From a virus: 27,229 nucleotides of DNA. Positions 177 to 26,983 of the stretch are shown here, piece by piece (position 1 is the stretch's first letter; each line of letters opens with the position of its first letter). The position numbers were made by a program, and so were the translations under genes. The notes below the pieces were generated by a model. That model had not been told where the DNA came from, ran no database searches, and saw nothing but the letters and a program-made list of their open reading frames with translations. The stretch covers positions 1 through 27,229 of the IMG/VR virus record IMGVR_UViG_3300017963_000669; one strand, written 5' to 3'.

Positions 177-426
177 GCTGGATCAGCTTCGCGGCATCGT
201 TCGCAAGGTGTACGGCAAGGAAGAAGGGCTCACTGACGCGATGGTGAAGGAGTTCCTGACGGATCGGGAGTGCGACAAGCTGATCGATTCCTTGCTGCCG
301 TCCACGGTGGAGAAGCTGAAGGAAATGGGCGAGTCGCGTGGCTTCCTGTCCGAGAAGAAGTTCTTCCTGCCGACCCGGATCGTTGGCATAAACGGCAAGC
401 CTCTGCACAAAGAGGACGATGCCTGA
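139..426 (+). CDS. Small protein upstream of terL, possible small terminase
   Basis: A 95-residue, highly charged and mainly helical protein. The open frame runs back to a GTG at 61, but the ATG at 139 is chosen because GGAGG sits at 125-129 with a 9-nt spacer. Its stop overlaps the terL start by 8 nt, so the two are probably translationally coupled. Small terminase subunits of podoviruses are about this size and often precede terL, so that role is plausible by position. I see no clear helix-turn-helix or other diagnostic motif, so function is inferred only from context. The C-terminal third (FFLPTRIVGINGKPL) is less charged and may form a beta hairpin. Confidence 0.65.
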   Translation: MPGENLHKLSKSELDQLRGIVRKVYGKEEGLTDAMVKEFLTDRECDKLIDSLLPSTVEKLKEMGESRGFLSEKKFFLPTRIVGINGKPLHKEDDA

Positions 427-1954
427 TTTTCATTACAAACCAGACGGCGCGACCCTTCGTGAGTTTATGAAGGATGATTCGTTCTGGCGCGGCATCCGTG
501 GCCCGGTGGGTTCTGGTAAATCGGTCGCCTCCTGTGTCGAAGTGTTCCGGCGAGCTTTGCAACAGCAGCCGAATGAGAAGGGCATACGACGCAGCAGGTG
601 GGCCGTCATTCGTAACACCGGGCCGCAGCTCAAGACCACCACGATCAAGACCTGGCTGGATTGGTTTCCCGAAGACGAGTTTGGCCCTTTCCGTTGGGGC
701 GTGCCGTTCACCCATCACATCATGGTGGGCGACATCGACCTCGAGGTTATCTTCCTTGCGCTGGATTCCGAGGAAGATATTCGCAAATTGCTGTCCTTAG
801 AACTCACTGGAATATGGGCAAACGAAGCAAGAGAAATGCCGAAGTCTATTATCGACGCCTGTACCATGCGTGTCGGTCGGTTTCCTTCCATGCGCGAAGG
901 TGGGCCAAGCTGGTACGGGATGATCTGCGACACCAACGCTCCTGAAGACGATCACTGGTGGCCGATCATGGCCGGCGATGCGCCGCTGCCAGAGGATTTC
1001 ACCGAACAGCAGGCATTGATGCTCAGGAAGCCCGAAGGCTGGAAATTCTTCAACCAGCCCGCGGCGATGGTGGAAATCAAGAACGAGGATGGTGATGTCA
1101 CTGGCTACGAGATCAGCGACCTTGCCGAAAACCGCAAGAACCTGACGCCGGATTACTACAAGAAGATCATCACCGGCAAGACGAAGGACTGGATCGACGT
1201 CTACGTGATGAACCGCCTCGGGACGGTCAGCGAAGGCAAGATCATCTACCCGAACTTCAACGATCAGGTACACAAATCCAAGGACATCATTCCGGTTGCG
1301 CCAGGTCGGCCCATTTATGTCGGCCTCGATTTCGGATTCAGCCCCGCCGCTGTGTTCGCGCAGCGTTTCTACGGTGGTCGCTGGAACATTCTGGCCGAGC
1401 TGGTGCCTGAAGACATCTCGACCCCGGCCTTTGCGCGGGAAGTCAAGGCCAAGATCAAGGAACTGATGGTCGATGACCGGCAGGAAGTCCGTATCTTTGG
1501 CGATCCGGCTGGCGATCAGCGCACACCGGGGCGCGAGGACACCAAGACCGCGTTCCAGATCATGCGCGCCGGGGGCATTCGGGCCAAGCCAGCGCACAGC
1601 AACGATCCGGCCATACGCATCGAGGCCGTGAAGCAGGTCATTGACCGTATGGTGGACGGTAAGCCAGCTCTGCTGGTCAGCCCTGAGTGTCGGAACCTTC
1701 TGAAAGGCTTTATCGCCGGGTACTGCCGCCGCCGCATCAATGCGCGTGGACCGGCGCGGTACGAGGATCGACCCGCCAAGAACAAGTATTCTCACCCTCA
1801 CGATGCCCTGCAATACCTGATGTTGGGTGCTGGTGAGGGCCGGGATTTGACCAAAAGCGCATCGCCAAGCGCGCCAAAAGCCAAGGCTAAGACCAAATGG
1901 AACGTGTTCGGGAAGAAAAAACGCGCGAGGACTACGCGACGCTCGACTATCTAG
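419..1954 (+). CDS. terL: Terminase large subunit (ATPase plus nuclease)
   Basis: The DNA-packaging motor protein, 511 residues, which pumps DNA into the prohead and cuts the concatemer. Walker A is at residues 28-35 (GPVGSGKS). A Walker B-like segment is at 131-139 (GIWANEARE), with the catalytic acid probably E136 and an Asn where Asp is common. The RNase H-like nuclease domain shows VGLDFGFSPAAVF (301-313, D304), IFGDPAGDQR (359-368, D362) and YSHPHDALQYLMLG (457-470, D462), the expected metal-binding acids. The last 30 residues are Lys/Arg-rich. The start ATG at 419 overlaps the upstream gene by 8 nt. Length is normal for the family. Here it precedes the portal, unlike T7 where the terminase lies at the far end of the late block. 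Confidence 0.97.
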   Translation: MPDFHYKPDGATLREFMKDDSFWRGIRGPVGSGKSVASCVEVFRRALQQQPNEKGIRRSRWAVIRNTGPQLKTTTIKTWLDWFPEDEFGPFRWGVPFTHHIMVGDIDLEVIFLALDSEEDIRKLLSLELTGIWANEAREMPKSIIDACTMRVGRFPSMREGGPSWYGMICDTNAPEDDHWWPIMAGDAPLPEDFTEQQALMLRKPEGWKFFNQPAAMVEIKNEDGDVTGYEISDLAENRKNLTPDYYKKIITGKTKDWIDVYVMNRLGTVSEGKIIYPNFNDQVHKSKDIIPVAPGRPIYVGLDFGFSPAAVFAQRFYGGRWNILAELVPEDISTPAFAREVKAKIKELMVDDRQEVRIFGDPAGDQRTPGREDTKTAFQIMRAGGIRAKPAHSNDPAIRIEAVKQVIDRMVDGKPALLVSPECRNLLKGFIAGYCRRRINARGPARYEDRPAKNKYSHPHDALQYLMLGAGEGRDLTKSASPSAPKAKAKTKWNVFGKKKRARTTRRSTI

Positions 1955-2460: not shown

Positions 2461-2734
2461 CAACATCGCCTTTCGCAAGAAACTCCGAGGTATTTTTTCC
2501 CTGCTATCGGCTGGCTTTGCCGGTTTTCCGCGTGGCCTTGGCGCTGGCGGCGGCAGGCAATTTGGTGGTCGTAGCACATCTGGCGGTGGCGGTAGCGGTT
2601 ATGCAGGTGGCCTGGGTAGTGGCAGCACACGGCCCGGAAGCTACGGCGGCAGCGGCAGCGGTGGCGGTGGCGGTGGCGGTGGTAGCCCTGCTCCACGTAG
2701 GCCGTCAGTACCGAAGGGTGGGGTTTACCGATGA
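2345..2734 (+). CDS. Gly-rich protein preceding the portal
   Basis: A 129-residue protein. Residues 1-45 are charged and helical (KELERIQIEREKQLRVENAR), 46-65 are hydrophobic (GIFSLLSAGFAGF), and 66-118 are almost entirely Gly/Ser with long glycine runs, ending in a basic Pro-rich tail. The start is well supported: GGAGGG at 2330-2335 with a 9-nt spacer to ATG 2345. It ends in an ATGA overlap with the portal gene. T7 has a small gly-rich virion assembly protein (gp7.3) just before its portal, so a structural or tail-assembly role is a reasonable analogy, not a homology claim. The GGT/GGC repeats would be prone to replication slippage. Confidence 0.75.
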   Translation: MSSKPKQSAQSKELERIQIEREKQLRVENARQTTKAFSDNIAFRKKLRGIFSLLSAGFAGFPRGLGAGGGRQFGGRSTSGGGGSGYAGGLGSGSTRPGSYGGSGSGGGGGGGGSPAPRRPSVPKGGVYR

Positions 2735-4287
2735 AGCTCTCTGGCCCTGAACTGCTGAAGCGTTTCTCCAAGGCCAAGTCAGCGCGATCAAACTGGGAAG
2801 ATTTGTGGCAGGACATCTACGATCTGGTGCTTCCTGCGCGTGAAGGTTTTTACGAAACGACCCCCGGCGAGGAAAGAACCGAGGAAATCTTTGACGAGAC
2901 TGCGCTGGTTTCGCTCGCTGATTTCGTTTCCCGCATCCATCAAGGCGTCATTCCAGCGCACTTGATGTGGTTCAGGCTGGAGCCGGGTCCAGAAGTGCCG
3001 CCGCAGCAGCGGGCAGAACTGCAAGAGCAGCTTGATCTGGTTGGCAAGTTCATCTGGGAAGCCATCGTGAACTCCAACTTCGTCAATGAGGCTCAGGAAG
3101 TTCTGACCGATATTGCGATCGGCTGGTCAACGCTCATCATCGACGACGGTGTTGATGGCAAGCTGTTGAGCTTCAAGTGCGTCCCGCAATGCCAAACCTT
3201 CTGGGACACAGGCGGCCCCAACAAGGAGGTTGACGGCGTGTTCCGGGTGCGCCACAAGGTTCGCATCAAGGACATCAAGCTCATCTGGCCGGACGCCAAG
3301 ATCAGCGATGCGCTTCAGGGCAAGGCCGATGGCGATCCCGAAGCAACGACCAATCTGGTCGAGGCCAGCTACCGCGATTGGAGCCGCAAGGAAACGCCGC
3401 GCTACTGCTATCAGGTGGTTGCCGGTGAAGACAAGTCGCTGGTGATCGATAACTACGAGGAAGGTCTGGGCTCGCGCCCGTATGTGACACCACGCTGGTC
3501 GGTTGCGGCCGGTGAGGTCTATGGCCGCGGCCCGTTGGTGTCGGCGCTGCCGGCGATCCGCACCACGAACCTCGTCACCGAAATGATTCTTGAGAACTCG
3601 CAGATGGCGATTTCTGGAATCTGGCAGGTGGACGACGATGGCACGATCAACGTGGATAACGTCGAGATTGTTCCCGGTGCTGTGTATGCGCGCCCCACTG
3701 ACAGTCGCGGCCTCGAGCGCACTGATAGCCCAAGCAATTTCAATGTGGCCGACATCGTACTGAGCAACCAGCAGGAGAACATTCGCAAGGCCCTGTTCGC
3801 TCAGAATCTTGGCCCATTGGATCAGACGCCGCGTTCTGCTACGGAGATCCAAGCCCGAATGCAGGACTTGGCCGAACAGACCGCAGGGCCGTCAGGACGA
3901 TTGAAAGTCGAATGGCTGGACAAAATGATCCAGCGCATCGTGTGGCTGTTGACCCGCCGTGGCGTATTGGAAATGCCGCGTGTCGATGGCCGCCAGGTCC
4001 GTATCGTTGCCAAATCACCGCTTGCCCGCGCACAGAAGTTTGAAGAAATCGAGCGCATCCGTGGCTTTGCCGGTGACGTTGTGACGATGTTGGGGCCGCA
4101 GGCCAGCCAGCTTTACATCGATCAGGACGAGCTGGTTGACGAACTGCAAATGAAGTGGGAAGTGCCGCAAAAGATGGTACGCGATCAAGCCAACCGAGAG
4201 AGGATGATGCAGGGCATGGCTGAAGCGGCTCAGGAACAGGGAATTGTACCGGGCGGTCTGCCTGCTCAAGCTGAAATTGGGCAATGA
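2731..4287 (+). CDS. Portal protein (head-to-tail connector)
   Basis: Twelve copies of this protein normally form the ring through which DNA enters and leaves the head. At 518 residues it has the usual size for podovirus connectors. The N-terminus (ELLKRFSKAKSARSNWEDLW, then IYDLVLPAREGFY) and the segment SLADFVSRIHQGVIPAHLMWFRL are typical of the T7 gp8/Bbp21-type head-tail connecting protein. A later conserved-looking segment is TPRSATEIQARMQDLAEQ (about residues 365-382), followed by the helical C-terminal part (EIERIRGFAGDVVTMLGPQAS). The start overlaps the upstream stop as ATGA and the 3' end overlaps the next gene as ATGA, indicating coupled translation. Confidence 0.93.
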   Translation: MKLSGPELLKRFSKAKSARSNWEDLWQDIYDLVLPAREGFYETTPGEERTEEIFDETALVSLADFVSRIHQGVIPAHLMWFRLEPGPEVPPQQRAELQEQLDLVGKFIWEAIVNSNFVNEAQEVLTDIAIGWSTLIIDDGVDGKLLSFKCVPQCQTFWDTGGPNKEVDGVFRVRHKVRIKDIKLIWPDAKISDALQGKADGDPEATTNLVEASYRDWSRKETPRYCYQVVAGEDKSLVIDNYEEGLGSRPYVTPRWSVAAGEVYGRGPLVSALPAIRTTNLVTEMILENSQMAISGIWQVDDDGTINVDNVEIVPGAVYARPTDSRGLERTDSPSNFNVADIVLSNQQENIRKALFAQNLGPLDQTPRSATEIQARMQDLAEQTAGPSGRLKVEWLDKMIQRIVWLLTRRGVLEMPRVDGRQVRIVAKSPLARAQKFEEIERIRGFAGDVVTMLGPQASQLYIDQDELVDELQMKWEVPQKMVRDQANRERMMQGMAEAAQEQGIVPGGLPAQAEIGQ

Positions 4288-4595
4288 GTGAAGACGGAAT
4301 CGGGAAATCCAAACGACCACCGAAGAAAACACCACGAGCAAAAGCAAAGCAGTATCTAGGGCCGGATGGCTTGCGCCGGCCACCGAAGGTTGAGCGCGAG
4401 CTCAATGAGTCCTTTGCCATTGTGTTTTCAAGCGCAGCAGGCAAGAAGACGCTCGACTACCTGAAGTCGATCACGACGAACCGGGTGCTGGAACCGGGTT
4501 TGCCGGAAAATACCTACTCGTATCAGGAAGGAGCCCGTTGGCTGATGGGCGTAATATCAACACGAATCAAAGACGGTGAGGAAAAGAAACCATGA
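4284..4595 (+). CDS. Bbp19-like small phage protein
   Basis: A 103-residue protein with a basic N-terminus (KSKRPPKKTPRAKAKQY) followed by the pattern F-x-x-V-F-S-S-x-x-G-K-K-T-L-D-Y-L near residue 50 and Y-x-Y-Q-E-G-A-R-W-L-M near residue 80. This arrangement, found between portal and scaffold, matches the Bbp19-type family of podoviruses; the molecular role is not known to me. ATGA overlaps at both ends bind it into the portal-scaffold operon. GAGG about 15 nt before its stop probably serves the scaffold gene. Confidence in the gene is high, in the family assignment moderate. Confidence 0.8.
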   Translation: MSEDGIGKSKRPPKKTPRAKAKQYLGPDGLRRPPKVERELNESFAIVFSSAAGKKTLDYLKSITTNRVLEPGLPENTYSYQEGARWLMGVISTRIKDGEEKKP

Positions 4596-5437
4596 AATAT
4601 TTACTGTGGCTCTTGTGGCTGGTTGTTCCACGTGAAACAGAAGGGGGCGAAGGTGACAGCGGTGGAGAGGGCGATGCTGGCGGTGATCCTGCTGGTGATG
4701 GTGATGGCGGTGGCGACGGTGACGGCGCAGCTGGTGAGCGCAAACCGCTTGGGGGGTCTGACCCGGAAGGCAAACCGGACTGGCTGGCTGACAAGTTTTG
4801 GAATCCTGACCTCAAAGCGCCGCGAACCGAAGTCCTTGCCAAATCCTTCAACGAGCTCGAGGGCAAACTCCGCACCAAGACGGAAGAACTGAAGGAAGAA
4901 GTGCTTGCGGATTTGCGCGCACAGGCCCCGGAGAAATACGAAGTCAATCTGTCCGAGGATCTGAAGCTGCCGGAAAACGTCGAGTTCAATCTGACCGACG
5001 AAGACCCGCTGGTGGGCTGGTTCTCAGGTTTCGCCAAAGACATTGGACTCACTCAGGAGCAGTTCGACAAGGCGATCAACGAGTACGTTGGCATCGAGAT
5101 CGGCAACATGCCGGACATGGAAGCGGAGATCGGCAAGCTGGGCGACCACGGCCAGGATCGACTGCTGCGCGTCCACAACTGGCTTGAAACAAGGCTTTCA
5201 GAGGATGAGCTGTCTTCGATGAGCTCGCTACTGAACTCAGCGGAGCAGATCGCCGCATTGGAGAAGCTGATGAAAGCGTCCGGCCCCAACGACTTTGACG
5301 GCGATTCTGGCGACGAGCCGTTGACGCTGGAAGAACTGCGCGAGATGCAAAACGACACGCGTTACTGGCAGGACAAAGACCCGGCGTTCATCAAGAAAGT
5401 CGAGGCTGGCTACCAGAGGCTTTACAAAAACCAGTAA
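4592..5437 (+). CDS. Scaffolding protein with hydrophobic N-terminal leader
   Basis: An acidic 281-residue protein between portal and coat, the scaffold position. Order: a hydrophobic leader (residues 1-13, MKYLLWLLWLVVP), a Gly/Asp-rich unstructured stretch (17-50), and a helical body. The C-terminal end (MQNDTRYWQDKDPAFIKKVE) is the tail typical of T7 gp9-like scaffolds. No ATG, GTG or TTG occurs in frame between the leader and the body except a TTG at codon 8, so the leader appears to be translated. The start overlaps the previous stop (ATGA) with GAGG upstream. Such a leader is unexpected on a soluble scaffold. Codons 11-16 coincide with an exact parS sequence (4624-4639). Confidence 0.88.
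   Translation: MKYLLWLLWLVVPRETEGGEGDSGGEGDAGGDPAGDGDGGGDGDGAAGERKPLGGSDPEGKPDWLADKFWNPDLKAPRTEVLAKSFNELEGKLRTKTEELKEEVLADLRAQAPEKYEVNLSEDLKLPENVEFNLTDEDPLVGWFSGFAKDIGLTQEQFDKAINEYVGIEIGNMPDMEAEIGKLGDHGQDRLLRVHNWLETRLSEDELSSMSSLLNSAEQIAALEKLMKASGPNDFDGDSGDEPLTLEELREMQNDTRYWQDKDPAFIKKVEAGYQRLYKNQ
4624..4639 (+). other. Exact match to the bacterial parS centromere consensus
   Basis: The 16 bases TGTTCCACGTGAAACA match the consensus TGTTNCACGTGAAACA at every defined position. This is the site that chromosomal ParB/Spo0J proteins bind in most bacteria. It is nearly palindromic around CACGTG and lies inside the scaffold gene, where it is read as V-P-R-E-T. I found no second copy and no other CACGTG in the window. 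Under equal base frequencies, about 0.00005 exact matches on either strand would be expected in 27 kb. The match is certain; that it is bound by host ParB or by the phage ParB-like protein is inference. Confidence 0.85.
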
Positions 5438-5511: not shown

Positions 5512-5555
5512 CCAAGTAGAGATAACCTGTAACCCTAGTTGTCATCTTTACTTGG
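5512..5555 (+). promoter_or_regulatory. Strong hairpin covering the coat ribosome-binding site
   Basis: CCAAGTAGAGATAAC (5512-5526) can pair with GTCATCTTTACTTGG (5541-5555): 13 Watson-Crick pairs, one G-U and one mismatch, with a 14-nt loop. The 3' arm includes the first two G of the GGAG Shine-Dalgarno sequence (5554-5557) that serves the coat ATG at 5564. It could hold translation in check, or be a processing site or 5' mRNA stabiliser, as hairpins around T7 capsid messages are. A smaller hairpin (CGCT/AGCG, 5464-5475) lies upstream in the same leader. Confidence 0.65.
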
Positions 5556-5563
5556 AGAAAACG

Positions 5564-6433
5564 ATGTTCTTGCTTCGTTTCATCCTGAGCCTCATCTTCC
5601 CGATGACTCAGGACAATTCGATCGACACCGCCTTCACCAAGCAGTTTGAGTCCGAAGTCCACCTTGCGTATCAGCGCATGGGCTCCAAGTTGCTCAACAC
5701 TGTTCGGCGCAAGACGAATGTCGTCGGCAAGTCCACCACTTTCCAGATCATCGGTAAAGGTTACGCAGGCACCAAGACCCGAGGCGGTCAGGTTCCGATC
5801 CTCAATCTCGTTCACACGAACGTCGAATGTACGCTGGCAGATCGCTATGCCGGTGAGTTCATCGACAAGCTGGACGAGCTCAAGATCGAGCATGACGAGC
5901 GAGCAGCCGTAACGGCCAGCATCGCCGGCGCTTTGGGTCGCGCATCCGATCAGGACATCATGGATGTCACCGATACGTTCACGCAGGAAACTTCAGCAAC
6001 GGGCGTCGTTACGCAGCCCAAGATTGAGGAAGCCTACGAGTATTTCGGTAACAACGATGTGCCGGATGATGGTGGGCGTTTCCTTGCTGTTGCTCCGCAA
6101 GGGTGGACTGACCTTATGGGTCTTACGACCTTCGCGTCTCTGGACTATGTACCGGAGTCGGATCTGCCTTTCCCGAAGGTAGGGTTCAGCGCGAAGAACT
6201 GGTTCTCGTTTAACATCTTCTCGTTCAGTGGTATCACGCTGACTGGCGGCACTGTCCGTCAGAACGTCGCGTACCACAAGAGCGCGGTCGGCCACGCAAG
6301 CGGTCAGGATGTGGCGATGGACATCACCTGGCAGGGCAAAGAGCAGGCGCATCTCGCGGTCGGCTCGATGTCCATGAATGCCGTAATCATCGATGACGTC
6401 GGTGGCTACCGCATTCGCTCGACGGAGACTTAA
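5564..6433 (+). CDS. Major capsid (coat) protein with a 13-residue hydrophobic extension
   Basis: The shell protein of the head, 289 residues from ATG 5564. The body begins at Met14 (MTQDNSIDTAFTKQFESEV), the usual start for Bbp17-like podovirus coat proteins. Further typical segments are GSKLLNTVRRKTNVVGKSTTF (about 40-60), the acidic helix EFIDKLDELKIEHDERAAV and a beta-rich C-terminal half. The start is set by GGAG at 5554-5557; the in-frame ATG at 5603 (Met14) has no such site. Translation should therefore add the leader MFLLRFILSLIFP, which is unusual for a coat protein. A TTG at 5552 overlaps the ribosome site and is unlikely. The gene has its own promoter and leader RNA. Confidence 0.92.
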   Translation: MFLLRFILSLIFPMTQDNSIDTAFTKQFESEVHLAYQRMGSKLLNTVRRKTNVVGKSTTFQIIGKGYAGTKTRGGQVPILNLVHTNVECTLADRYAGEFIDKLDELKIEHDERAAVTASIAGALGRASDQDIMDVTDTFTQETSATGVVTQPKIEEAYEYFGNNDVPDDGGRFLAVAPQGWTDLMGLTTFASLDYVPESDLPFPKVGFSAKNWFSFNIFSFSGITLTGGTVRQNVAYHKSAVGHASGQDVAMDITWQGKEQAHLAVGSMSMNAVIIDDVGGYRIRSTET

Positions 6434-25303: not shown

Positions 25304-26863
25304 TCAGAAGATGAGCCATTCAGGGCGCCAGTCACTCGGCACCTTCTCTTTCAGGATAGCGCGGATCACCTTGGCCGTCGCGTTTACATCGATCGATACA
25401 CCTGTTTCCTTGGCGATGGCAATCAGTGTCTTCTTGTTGGTAATGCCATTCCAAAAAGCGTCGTCGGCCTCCCATGTGCTGACCTCATTCAGCCCGAGTG
25501 CGCGGCCCAGCTCGTCCGTGTTCTCCACATTCTCACAGGCCCAGTTGTAGGCTACCGTGAGGATGATCCAGTCGCGGATCTGCGCTGGCTTGTACTCGTC
25601 CAGCTTCTCGGCCAGTGCCGGGAACTTGACGTCCCAGGTCCAGCCATCCTTGACGCCAAGGCACTCGAGCATTTCCGTGTACCGATCATGGATGTTGATG
25701 AACGCATCGCTGCTGTGCAGGCTGTCATTGTAAGCGTCGCTCAGGTTCTTGCCGCCCGGGCGGAACTGGATGTTGTCAGCTTGCTTGAGTAGCAGCATCA
25801 GTGTGCCGGTCAGTCCGGTGGTGGCGTCGGCCATGACCATGTACTGCTGAACTGCGGCGTGGCGTGTCTCGGCCATGAAGTCATCGAACGCCTTGCTGGT
25901 GGCTGGCTTCTCGATCTTCTTGCCTTGTTCCTCCGGGTTCGTCGCCTCCGGCGCCTTACCCGCCGACTTCTTGCGGGCGTATCCCTTGTGGAACTCGACG
26001 TTGCCTGTGCGCTCGCTGACCGTGTAGATGACTTGACCGCCGTCCTTCTTGGCTACCTTGTCGTAGGCGTACTGTTGGAAGTAATCGACTTGCTGAACCT
26101 TCCAGCCTAGTTCTTCCAGCTTGGCTATCTCGGCATTAATGGCCTCGGTCTGGAGCTCCCAGAACTGGTCGCCATCGGTGAGGTATTCCTCATCGTCCTC
26201 TGCGAACAGGTCACGGATCTTTCCGCCCGTGTACTTCTCGAGGTCGAAGATCGCTGCGCTGGCCGGGTACTTACCTTTCTCGTATAGCCAGTCATTGATC
26301 TGCCAGTCGTTCGGGCGATCATCTTTCTTCAGCTTGTTATAGCGGGCGACGTTTTTGCCGGATGCCACGGCGAGTGCGCGCAGGGTGCGATCCCCGATGT
26401 CGCCTTTTTCAGCGTCGTCGAGAATTTTTTTCGGCAAAGTTCCGATGGCCAGGGTACGTTGCACGCTCTCGGGTGTGAGGCTGAACTGCTCTGCGATCTG
26501 GTCAACTGACACGCCGGACTTGAACAACTGGGCGAATGCTTTGAACAGCTCGATCTCACCCATTGGCGCGCGGTCATAGTTCTCGGACAGTGACAGCGCC
26601 ACCCTCTCGGAATTGGTTAATGCCGAGACATCGAGACAGCGTACCTCGTCAACACCTGCGGAGATCGCACCTGCCACCCTGAGCTGGCCGGCGATGATCT
26701 CGTACTTGCCGTCACCATTCAGTGCAACAGTAGGCGGGTTGATGATGCCTCGATGCTTGATCGAGTTGGCCATCTGAGCGATGTCCTCTTTCGTGTGTTG
26801 TGCCCGCACATTGCTGACTGATTTTTTCAGCAGGTCTGTGCTTACCATGATTTCATTTGTCAT
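25304..26863 (-). CDS. ParB family protein, plasmid-type
   Basis: 519 residues. The N-terminal ParB domain is clear: NVRAQHTKEDIAQMANSIKHRGIINPPTV (18-46), YEIIAGQLRVAGAISAG (54-70) and ENYDRAPMGEIELFKAF (94-110). A helix-turn-helix follows (VSVDQIAEQFSLTPESVQRTLAIGTLP, 118-144). The GERR motif that binds CTP in chromosomal ParB reads GQLR here, with Leu61 in place of an Arg. A long C-terminal part (about 200-519, ending VPSDWRPEWLIF) resembles ParB-like proteins of plasmids and integrative elements. AGAGGA with a 7-nt spacer fixes the ATG at 26863; an upstream TTG is unlikely. No ParA partner is visible. It may act in DNA segregation, replication or regulation. Confidence 0.88.
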   Translation of the reverse strand: MTNEIMVSTDLLKKSVSNVRAQHTKEDIAQMANSIKHRGIINPPTVALNGDGKYEIIAGQLRVAGAISAGVDEVRCLDVSALTNSERVALSLSENYDRAPMGEIELFKAFAQLFKSGVSVDQIAEQFSLTPESVQRTLAIGTLPKKILDDAEKGDIGDRTLRALAVASGKNVARYNKLKKDDRPNDWQINDWLYEKGKYPASAAIFDLEKYTGGKIRDLFAEDDEEYLTDGDQFWELQTEAINAEIAKLEELGWKVQQVDYFQQYAYDKVAKKDGGQVIYTVSERTGNVEFHKGYARKKSAGKAPEATNPEEQGKKIEKPATSKAFDDFMAETRHAAVQQYMVMADATTGLTGTLMLLLKQADNIQFRPGGKNLSDAYNDSLHSSDAFINIHDRYTEMLECLGVKDGWTWDVKFPALAEKLDEYKPAQIRDWIILTVAYNWACENVENTDELGRALGLNEVSTWEADDAFWNGITNKKTLIAIAKETGVSIDVNATAKVIRAILKEKVPSDWRPEWLIF

Positions 26864-26890
26864 GTTTGTTCCTCTTGGTTTCAGATATAA

Positions 26891-26983
26891 CGAAGCCCCG
26901 ACGACACCTGTCACCGCGCTGTTCAATTACTAGGGATTTGTAGTCCTGTTCGTGTACTGAGCTACGTGGCCGCCGGGGCTCCG
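26891..26983 (-). ncRNA. Structured, tRNA-like RNA leader of the ParB gene
   Basis: Read on the - strand, CGGAGCCCCGGCGGC (26983-26969) pairs with GTCGTCGGGGCTTCG (26905-26891): 15 consecutive pairs, three of them G-U, enclosing 63 nt. The G-U pairs favour the - strand as the transcribed one. Inside are GTAGCTCAGT, identical to the common tRNA D-arm start, and GGA-CTACAAA-TCC, a 7-nt loop like an anticodon arm. There is no TTCRA T-loop, the would-be T arm is mostly wobble pairs, and the span is too long for a normal tRNA, so it is not called as one. It lies 28 nt before the ParB ATG. Confidence 0.55.

Follow-up and report, generated by a model that had tools for sequence, protein, structure and literature searches.

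A candidate host-type parS in the scaffold gene of a podovirus, with counterparts at other places in related phages

The candidate site and its setting

The virus record analysed here, whose 27,229 bases we call the window, carries inside a scaffold-type gene an exact chromosomal-type parS, TGTTCCACGTGAAACA, with 0 mismatches to the consensus TGTTNCACGTGAAACA in a scan of the window (table 1). From sequence comparison, and with a probability of roughly three in four, we put forward that this is a functional parS, kept at the DNA level and read by the chromosomal ParB of the host. The 16-mer has a single exact copy in the whole 27,229-base record; the next-best match to TGTTNCACGTGAAACA, at 6200-6215, has 3 mismatches and is the sole other place at ≤3. 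The initial annotation had described a full fit to the consensus at 15 defined bases, a single occurrence and a chance expectation of 0.00005, all of which we recovered (2 x 27,214 / 4^15 = 0.00005 for the last). The site also supplies the sole CACGTG of the window, for which base composition predicts 7.7, and it is read in frame as GTT GTT CCA CGT GAA ACA (VVPRET), codons 11-16 of its ORF. Two further records with a scaffold protein 100% identical to that of the window (L001 and L002) have the identical site, and the 37,845 bases of L002/G002, nearly the same phage, hold no second site at ≤2 mismatches.

Table 1. Position of the candidate parS and of the genes discussed, in window coordinates.
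Feature	Position	Strand	Remarks
Candidate parS TGTTCCACGTGAAACA	4624..4639	+	Exact consensus match, in frame as (V)VPRET
Scaffold/capsid-assembly gene, 281 aa	4592..5437	+	Site in variable N-terminal part; label from PF05396 and position
103-aa gene, overlaps scaffold start	4284..4595	+	Directly upstream; used as query for relatives
Portal / head-tail connector	2731..4287	+	phrog_332, E 2.6e-77
Major head protein	5564..6433	+	phrog_3437, E 1.2e-47; ATG inside ORF 5552-6433
Terminase large subunit	419..1954	+	phrog_2; query for distant relatives
ParB-like protein, 540 aa from TTG	25304..26926	-	PF02195; ATG 21 codons in is the likelier start

The placement of the site within a scaffold gene, also proposed before, is a fair one, since the ORF matches PF05396 ("Phage T7 capsid assembly protein") at 24.5 bits, below the cut-off of 27.1, and is found between the portal and major head protein genes. 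It additionally matches phrog_3742 and phrog_20392, both of unknown function. Part of the genome is probably missing from the window: in L002/G002, where the gene for the ParB-like protein lies at the left end, ~11 kb separate that gene from the terminase gene. A search of ten early ORFs of G002 at E 0.001 gave no family pointing to integration. The scaffold (4592-4640) and the major head protein (5564-5610) start with similar hydrophobic leaders, MKYLLWLLWLVVP and MFLLRFILSLIFPM, odd in head proteins and perhaps a cleaved or membrane-seeking tag.

Scaffold starts, relocated sites and codons in related phages

The alignment of scaffold 5' regions from related phages, suggested in the initial annotation as a check, did not come out in favour of conservation, and by the refuting condition given there the scaffold gene on its own would have ended the proposal. 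Similarity to the scaffold, the upstream 103-aa gene or the head protein retrieved 23 close records, many of them fragments, and the codon-by-codon comparison covered the starts of 12 distinct close scaffolds, without L008, which is remote. A site at ≤1 mismatch is present in three of the 12, namely the window and its two nearest relatives, L012 and L013, which read GTT CCA CGT GAA AC[AT] and deviate from the consensus at a single, outermost position each. In the remaining nine the homologous codons form no parS. They read CTG CCA CGT GAA GAA in L004, CTG CCA CGC GAA in L006, ATT CCG CGC GAA GAC in L016, TTG CCA CGC GCA in L018 and CTC CCA CGC GAA GGC in L029, and VPRE is absent from the scaffold starts of L003, L005, L007 and L030/L031. 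Within the close family, the scaffold-gene site is restricted to the window's own clade. The idea of a DNA site nevertheless survives this result, since four relatives carry the site elsewhere.

A search of the whole records found a site at ≤2 mismatches in 9 of the 23, representing 7 distinct phages, and the reversed control pattern in 0/23 at the same threshold. The word GTTYCACGTGRAAC is common to all seven. In the four relatives with relocated sites (G004, G011, G012 and G013) the scaffold is without the site, reads otherwise or, in G013, has a start that is not covered. The sites of G004 (GGTTTCACGTGGAACA) and G011 (TGTTTCACGTGGAACA) are inside a long ORF that gave no PHROG match, and are read VSRGT. 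G012 and G013 both carry GGTTCCACGTGGAACA, placed ~1.3 kb and ~1.2 kb, respectively, upstream of the gene for the large terminase subunit; in G013 the site immediately precedes a gene with HELEH. Of the relocated sites, three (L394:622, L395:188 and L396:522) fall within ~640 bases of a contig end. No site at ≤2 mismatches was found in G019, in which the scaffold and ~6 kb upstream of it are covered. An explanation of the window site as a protein motif, given that [VLI]-P-R-E recurs in close scaffolds with varying synonymous bases, was dropped on finding sites elsewhere.

For counting we used the pattern TGTTNCACGTGNAACA, whose second N was introduced after the search of the 23 records. The 18 close records outside the window clade (229,134 bases) have 4 sites at ≤1 mismatch to this pattern, with 0.04 expected under flat composition. 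In 16 pieces drawn from these 18 records (114,359 bases in total) the 4 sites seen at ≤1 mismatch compare with 0 in 60 order-2 simulations, and the 4 seen at ≤2 mismatches with a simulated mean of 0.27 and a largest value of 2; these pieces cover the site-bearing records more fully, and the expectation of 0.04 refers to whole records.

More distant relatives were collected through a terminase alignment, which provided the best 80 of at least 593 confirmed viral loci plus 13 loci in bacterial bins, with terminases mostly 51-60% identical. After exclusion of L402, which is G004 again, 92 distant loci (940 kb) were counted. Twelve of these loci contain a site, in total 4 exact sites and 9 with one mismatch, whereas 150 permuted half-site words averaged 0.02 exact and 0.18 one-mismatch hits in the same loci, with maxima of 2 and 6. 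Nineteen control words that keep CACGTG gave higher means, 0.8 for exact and 1.0 for one-mismatch hits (maxima 7 and 6), possibly since real parS fit some of these words. One of the 13 sites (L466:6484, core CAAGTG) does not look like parS, and 80 of the 92 loci have no site at ≤1 mismatch, though many are fragments. Kin loci inherit their sites by descent, as in the close pairs L431/L439 and L455/L469, and the site counts are therefore not all independent. A second set, comprising 47 of 79 distant records with all viral loci bearing a ≤1-mismatch site put in, was used for the reversed-pattern and PF02195 searches; at ≤2 mismatches the parS pattern is found in 12/47 and the reversed control in 3/47, in a set enriched for site-bearing loci, so that only the 92-locus count is unbiased.

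In 8 of the 12 site-bearing distant loci the site is again in the scaffold gene, either in its N-terminal part (L436, L455, L466 and L469, and with a CACATG core L451 and L471) or in its C-terminal part (L431 and L439). The others have it in the portal gene (L404), a tail-like gene (L485), a minus-strand ORF with a CACATG core (L450) and, on the other strand, an uncharacterised gene whose protein ends in DDIPF (L464). A scaffold match was obtained in 54 of 94 loci, and the site is in the scaffold in 9 of these 54, Hodr counted (with the window-type query in the wrong frame). Two further scaffold sites, in L114 and L329 (VPRET, in the window's letters), were drawn from parS scans and are not independent evidence. 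Of 15 named phages picked from protein hits, 14 are without a site at ≤2 mismatches. The fifteenth is Pelagibacter phage Hodr, the only phage of the 15 whose terminase exceeds 41% identity, and near its scaffold start (L400 5018-5033) it reads TGTTTCAAATGAAACA, both arms kept and the core altered. This core change and the CACATG forms of L450, L451 and L471 may represent decay or a parS dialect. A DNA search against named isolates returned two short matches only, and nothing in the phage collection closely matched the L111 flank. Judging by the titles of the bins and by Hodr, the lineage is apparently largely aquatic, with non-sporulating Gram-negative hosts.

The codons offer a further clue. 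In ORFs ≥100 aa of 93 loci there are eight V[SP]RET peptides, spread over three different proteins (the scaffold, the portal and the product of the L464 gene), and all eight are written GTT [TC]CA CGT GAA AC[AGT]. The probability of parS-fitting codons under each record's codon usage is 0.0055-0.032 for these peptides, and 0.001 for the window. As all V[SP]RET peptides use parS codons, the need appears to be at the level of the DNA and not of the peptide. Taken together with the relocation in relatives, the DNA word, rather than the peptide or the place, seems to be under selection, with the scaffold linker probably just a permissive place, which changes fast and can accommodate V[SP]RET. Over 99 kb, comprising the window plus eight related pieces, 7/9 CACGTG are parS. 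Many 6-base palindromes are strongly avoided in this DNA (GGTACC 0 vs 23.6 expected, CCATGG 1 vs 22.5, GGGCCC 1 vs 19.9), which suggests pressure from host restriction. Avoidance of CACGTG as such in the close family was also considered, and dropped at 9 seen vs 8.8 in the Markov expectation.

Candidate binding proteins and the possible gain for the phage

The bacterial bins with related terminases point to the protein that might read the site. Nine of ten such bins hold exact TGTTNCACGTGNAACA, six of these nine with two or three parS within a few kb, and the window's own 16-mer is found in three (Novosphingobium, Kordiimonadaceae and gammaproteobacterial). We infer that the bins represent hosts and that their sites are chromosomal, though the binning may be wrong. 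The variation among phage sites is mainly at positions 1/16 and 5/12, and fits the parS letters in the bacterial bins; it also fits the P. aeruginosa parS TGTTCCACGTGGAACM (PMC5098823). Read on the opposite strand, GGTTCCACGTGGAACA is P. aeruginosa parS1/parS4, to which ParB binds in vivo; two-mismatch parS variants are unbound in vivo in this species (PMC5098823), and phage sites of the CACATG and AAATGA forms may therefore be non-functional. One parS is described as enough for segregation of the P. aeruginosa chromosome (PMC5098823), and thus one phage site could work. In an alternative scenario, the site would belong to another DNA-binding protein, such as a phage regulator, a methylase or a packaging signal, and would only resemble parS. 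The position of several sites upstream of the terminase or near the scaffold start would suit such a protein, but the gene, place and strand of the sites differ and their variation follows the parS letters of the bins and of P. aeruginosa, which makes this scenario improbable.

A protein of the phage itself was the other candidate. The initial annotation had noted a ParB-family protein with a non-canonical helix-turn-helix, and had listed this protein as a possible reader of the site. The protein is indeed present, and is also encoded by 5/22 further close records (one partial, one broken by stops). Over about its first 210 residues it has a ParB/Noc fold, with ParB, Noc, Spo0J and KorB retrieved in the fold search; the AlphaFold model (mean pLDDT 49) is of fair quality for ~residues 21-210 only. 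A long C-terminal part has no Pfam match. In Caulobacter ParB the contacts to parS are made by G170, K171, S172, R173 and N178 (PMC7383237). At these places the phage protein carries S, L, T, P and R, as aligned by eye over the helix-turn-helix, two of its relatives differ again, and the GERR motif reads GQLR. No ParA of the PF13614 type was found in the 23 close records, partly fragments, with positive controls in 14/14. Among the 47 distant records, many of them fragments, PF02195 was found in none, with controls positive in 10/14 genomes; these negatives include all viral records with a ≤1-mismatch site, such as G040 and G059, ~33 kb each and each with an exact site.

A partition system of the phage's own appears unlikely from the sequence, with no PF13614 ParA found in the close records and the contact residues replaced in the ParB-like protein. 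Recognition of the site by the ParB-like protein itself appears, from its predicted contacts, quite improbable: its presence in the window and several close records and its ParB fold speak for it, but the contact residues and the GERR motif are replaced, no PF13614 accompanies it in the close records and the distant site-bearing phages have no PF02195 match. An exact host-type parS without a ParB able to read it is a description that fits the distant relatives; the window phage encodes a ParB-like protein, of divergent sequence. The host ParB is the likely binder. Of the earlier proposal that the site recruits host ParB, the selection at the DNA level and the host ParB as the likeliest binder thus hold as readings of the sequence, and conservation of the place in the scaffold does not.

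If the host ParB reads the site, it would load there as a CTP clamp and spread along the infecting or replicating phage DNA. The spread ParB would tie this DNA to the host ParA/SMC machinery, and phage genomes could then stay with the segregating host origin regions, with no loss if division precedes lysis. The phi29 system provides the nearest parallel. The genome of phi29 contains the window's 16-mer four times without mismatch, within genes 10 (connector), 15 (endolysin) and 17 and immediately behind gene 16, which encodes the packaging ATPase. The initial annotation knew of no canonical parS described inside a podovirus head gene; the identical 16-mer in the connector gene is a precedent at the level of sequence. 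Phi29 is a lytic podovirus and, like the window phage, has this 16-mer in a head gene; it differs in having four sites, not one, and a spore-forming Gram-positive host, and no link to dormancy was seen here. The work of Meijer et al. 2005 on the entrapment of phi29 in spores by Spo0J reportedly speaks of parS. By analogy with phi29 and Spo0J, for which it has likewise been proposed, the most likely gain for the phage would be retention or positioning, a suggestion to which we give slightly less than an even chance. Entrapment of the phi29 genome in spores by Spo0J is reported (PMC9437464).

Interference with the host is another possible gain. Titration of ParB, or SMC loading on phage DNA, would then disturb host segregation or free host functions. 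Phage replication would presumably turn the single site into many copies, and the parS-like sites of SGI1 destabilise a helper plasmid (PMC10954446), but a decoy with a single site in each genome would be a weak one (phi29 has four), and we consider interference unlikely. SGI1 carries two parS-like sites that bind the ParB of the helper IncC plasmid, with SGI1 stabilised and the plasmid destabilised (PMC10954446). SGI1 resembles the case proposed here as a mobile element that exploits the ParB of another replicon; in contrast, that ParB is of a plasmid and not of a chromosome, the element is integrative and not a virus, and it has two sites.

Other phages bring their own partition systems. In cyanophage Mic1 both ParA and ParB are encoded by the phage, together with a palindrome of its own that differs in sequence from parS, and P1 and N15 are further phages with a ParABS of their own (PMC7156551). 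All three share with the window phage a ParB-binding centromere on phage DNA, in the window phage a candidate only, but here neither a ParA nor a matching ParB was found. Compared with bacterial chromosomal parS, the window site is identical in its letters, and differs in being on a phage, single, within coding DNA and with no parAB beside it. Titles and abstract openings among the literature matches listed, which comprised few subscription papers and no preprints, contain no parS in this phage lineage, and the accessible parts of PMC13190303, PMC12704722 and PMC10294663 no such case.

In a wider and more speculative scenario, for which the odds are somewhat lower than for retention as such, a large podovirus lineage would hide one host centromere, mostly in the scaffold linker. 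The host ParB, via ParA/SMC, would segregate the phage with the host chromosome in slow or deferred infections, amounting to a carrier state based on partition, with no genes for lysogeny. Should host ParB load at the site, lytic-looking phages would join chromosome segregation without a matching partition system of their own, which would bear on the old question of phage persistence in dividing or starved cells.

The parS word in the wider viral collection

In the viral collection, TGTTCCACGTGAAACA is found in at least 120 stretches, versus 58 for the matched control word TGTTCCAGCTGAAACA, and the perfect palindrome in 78 of the 120 any-N matches listed, versus 13/120 for the control. These counts bear on the possibility that chance and ascertainment account for the window site, one parS word having been met among many windows and VPRET having been inherited for protein reasons. 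The 58 stretches with the control word mean that isolated matches are expected somewhere, and most close relatives have no site in the scaffold. Against this, near-perfect sites lie elsewhere in relatives chosen regardless of the site, the codons match in 8/8 peptides across three proteins and the parS word outnumbers its control, and we hold chance to be highly improbable.

Presence of parS on phage contigs seems to reach beyond this lineage, though some of the loci may be misfiled bacterial DNA. A Spo0J-like ParB was found in 0 of the 202 parS loci among the matches listed, on the stretch examined, with a query that detects the ParB-like protein of the window at 2e-17. Several sites are present in 25 of these 202 loci (L036-L155 and L276-L357). 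A parS on a viral contig thereby offers a simple rule for finding candidate phages. At L097:8564 and L152:5988 an exact palindromic parS is located outside ORFs ≥80 aa; the L097 site falls between the matches to portal and scaffold.
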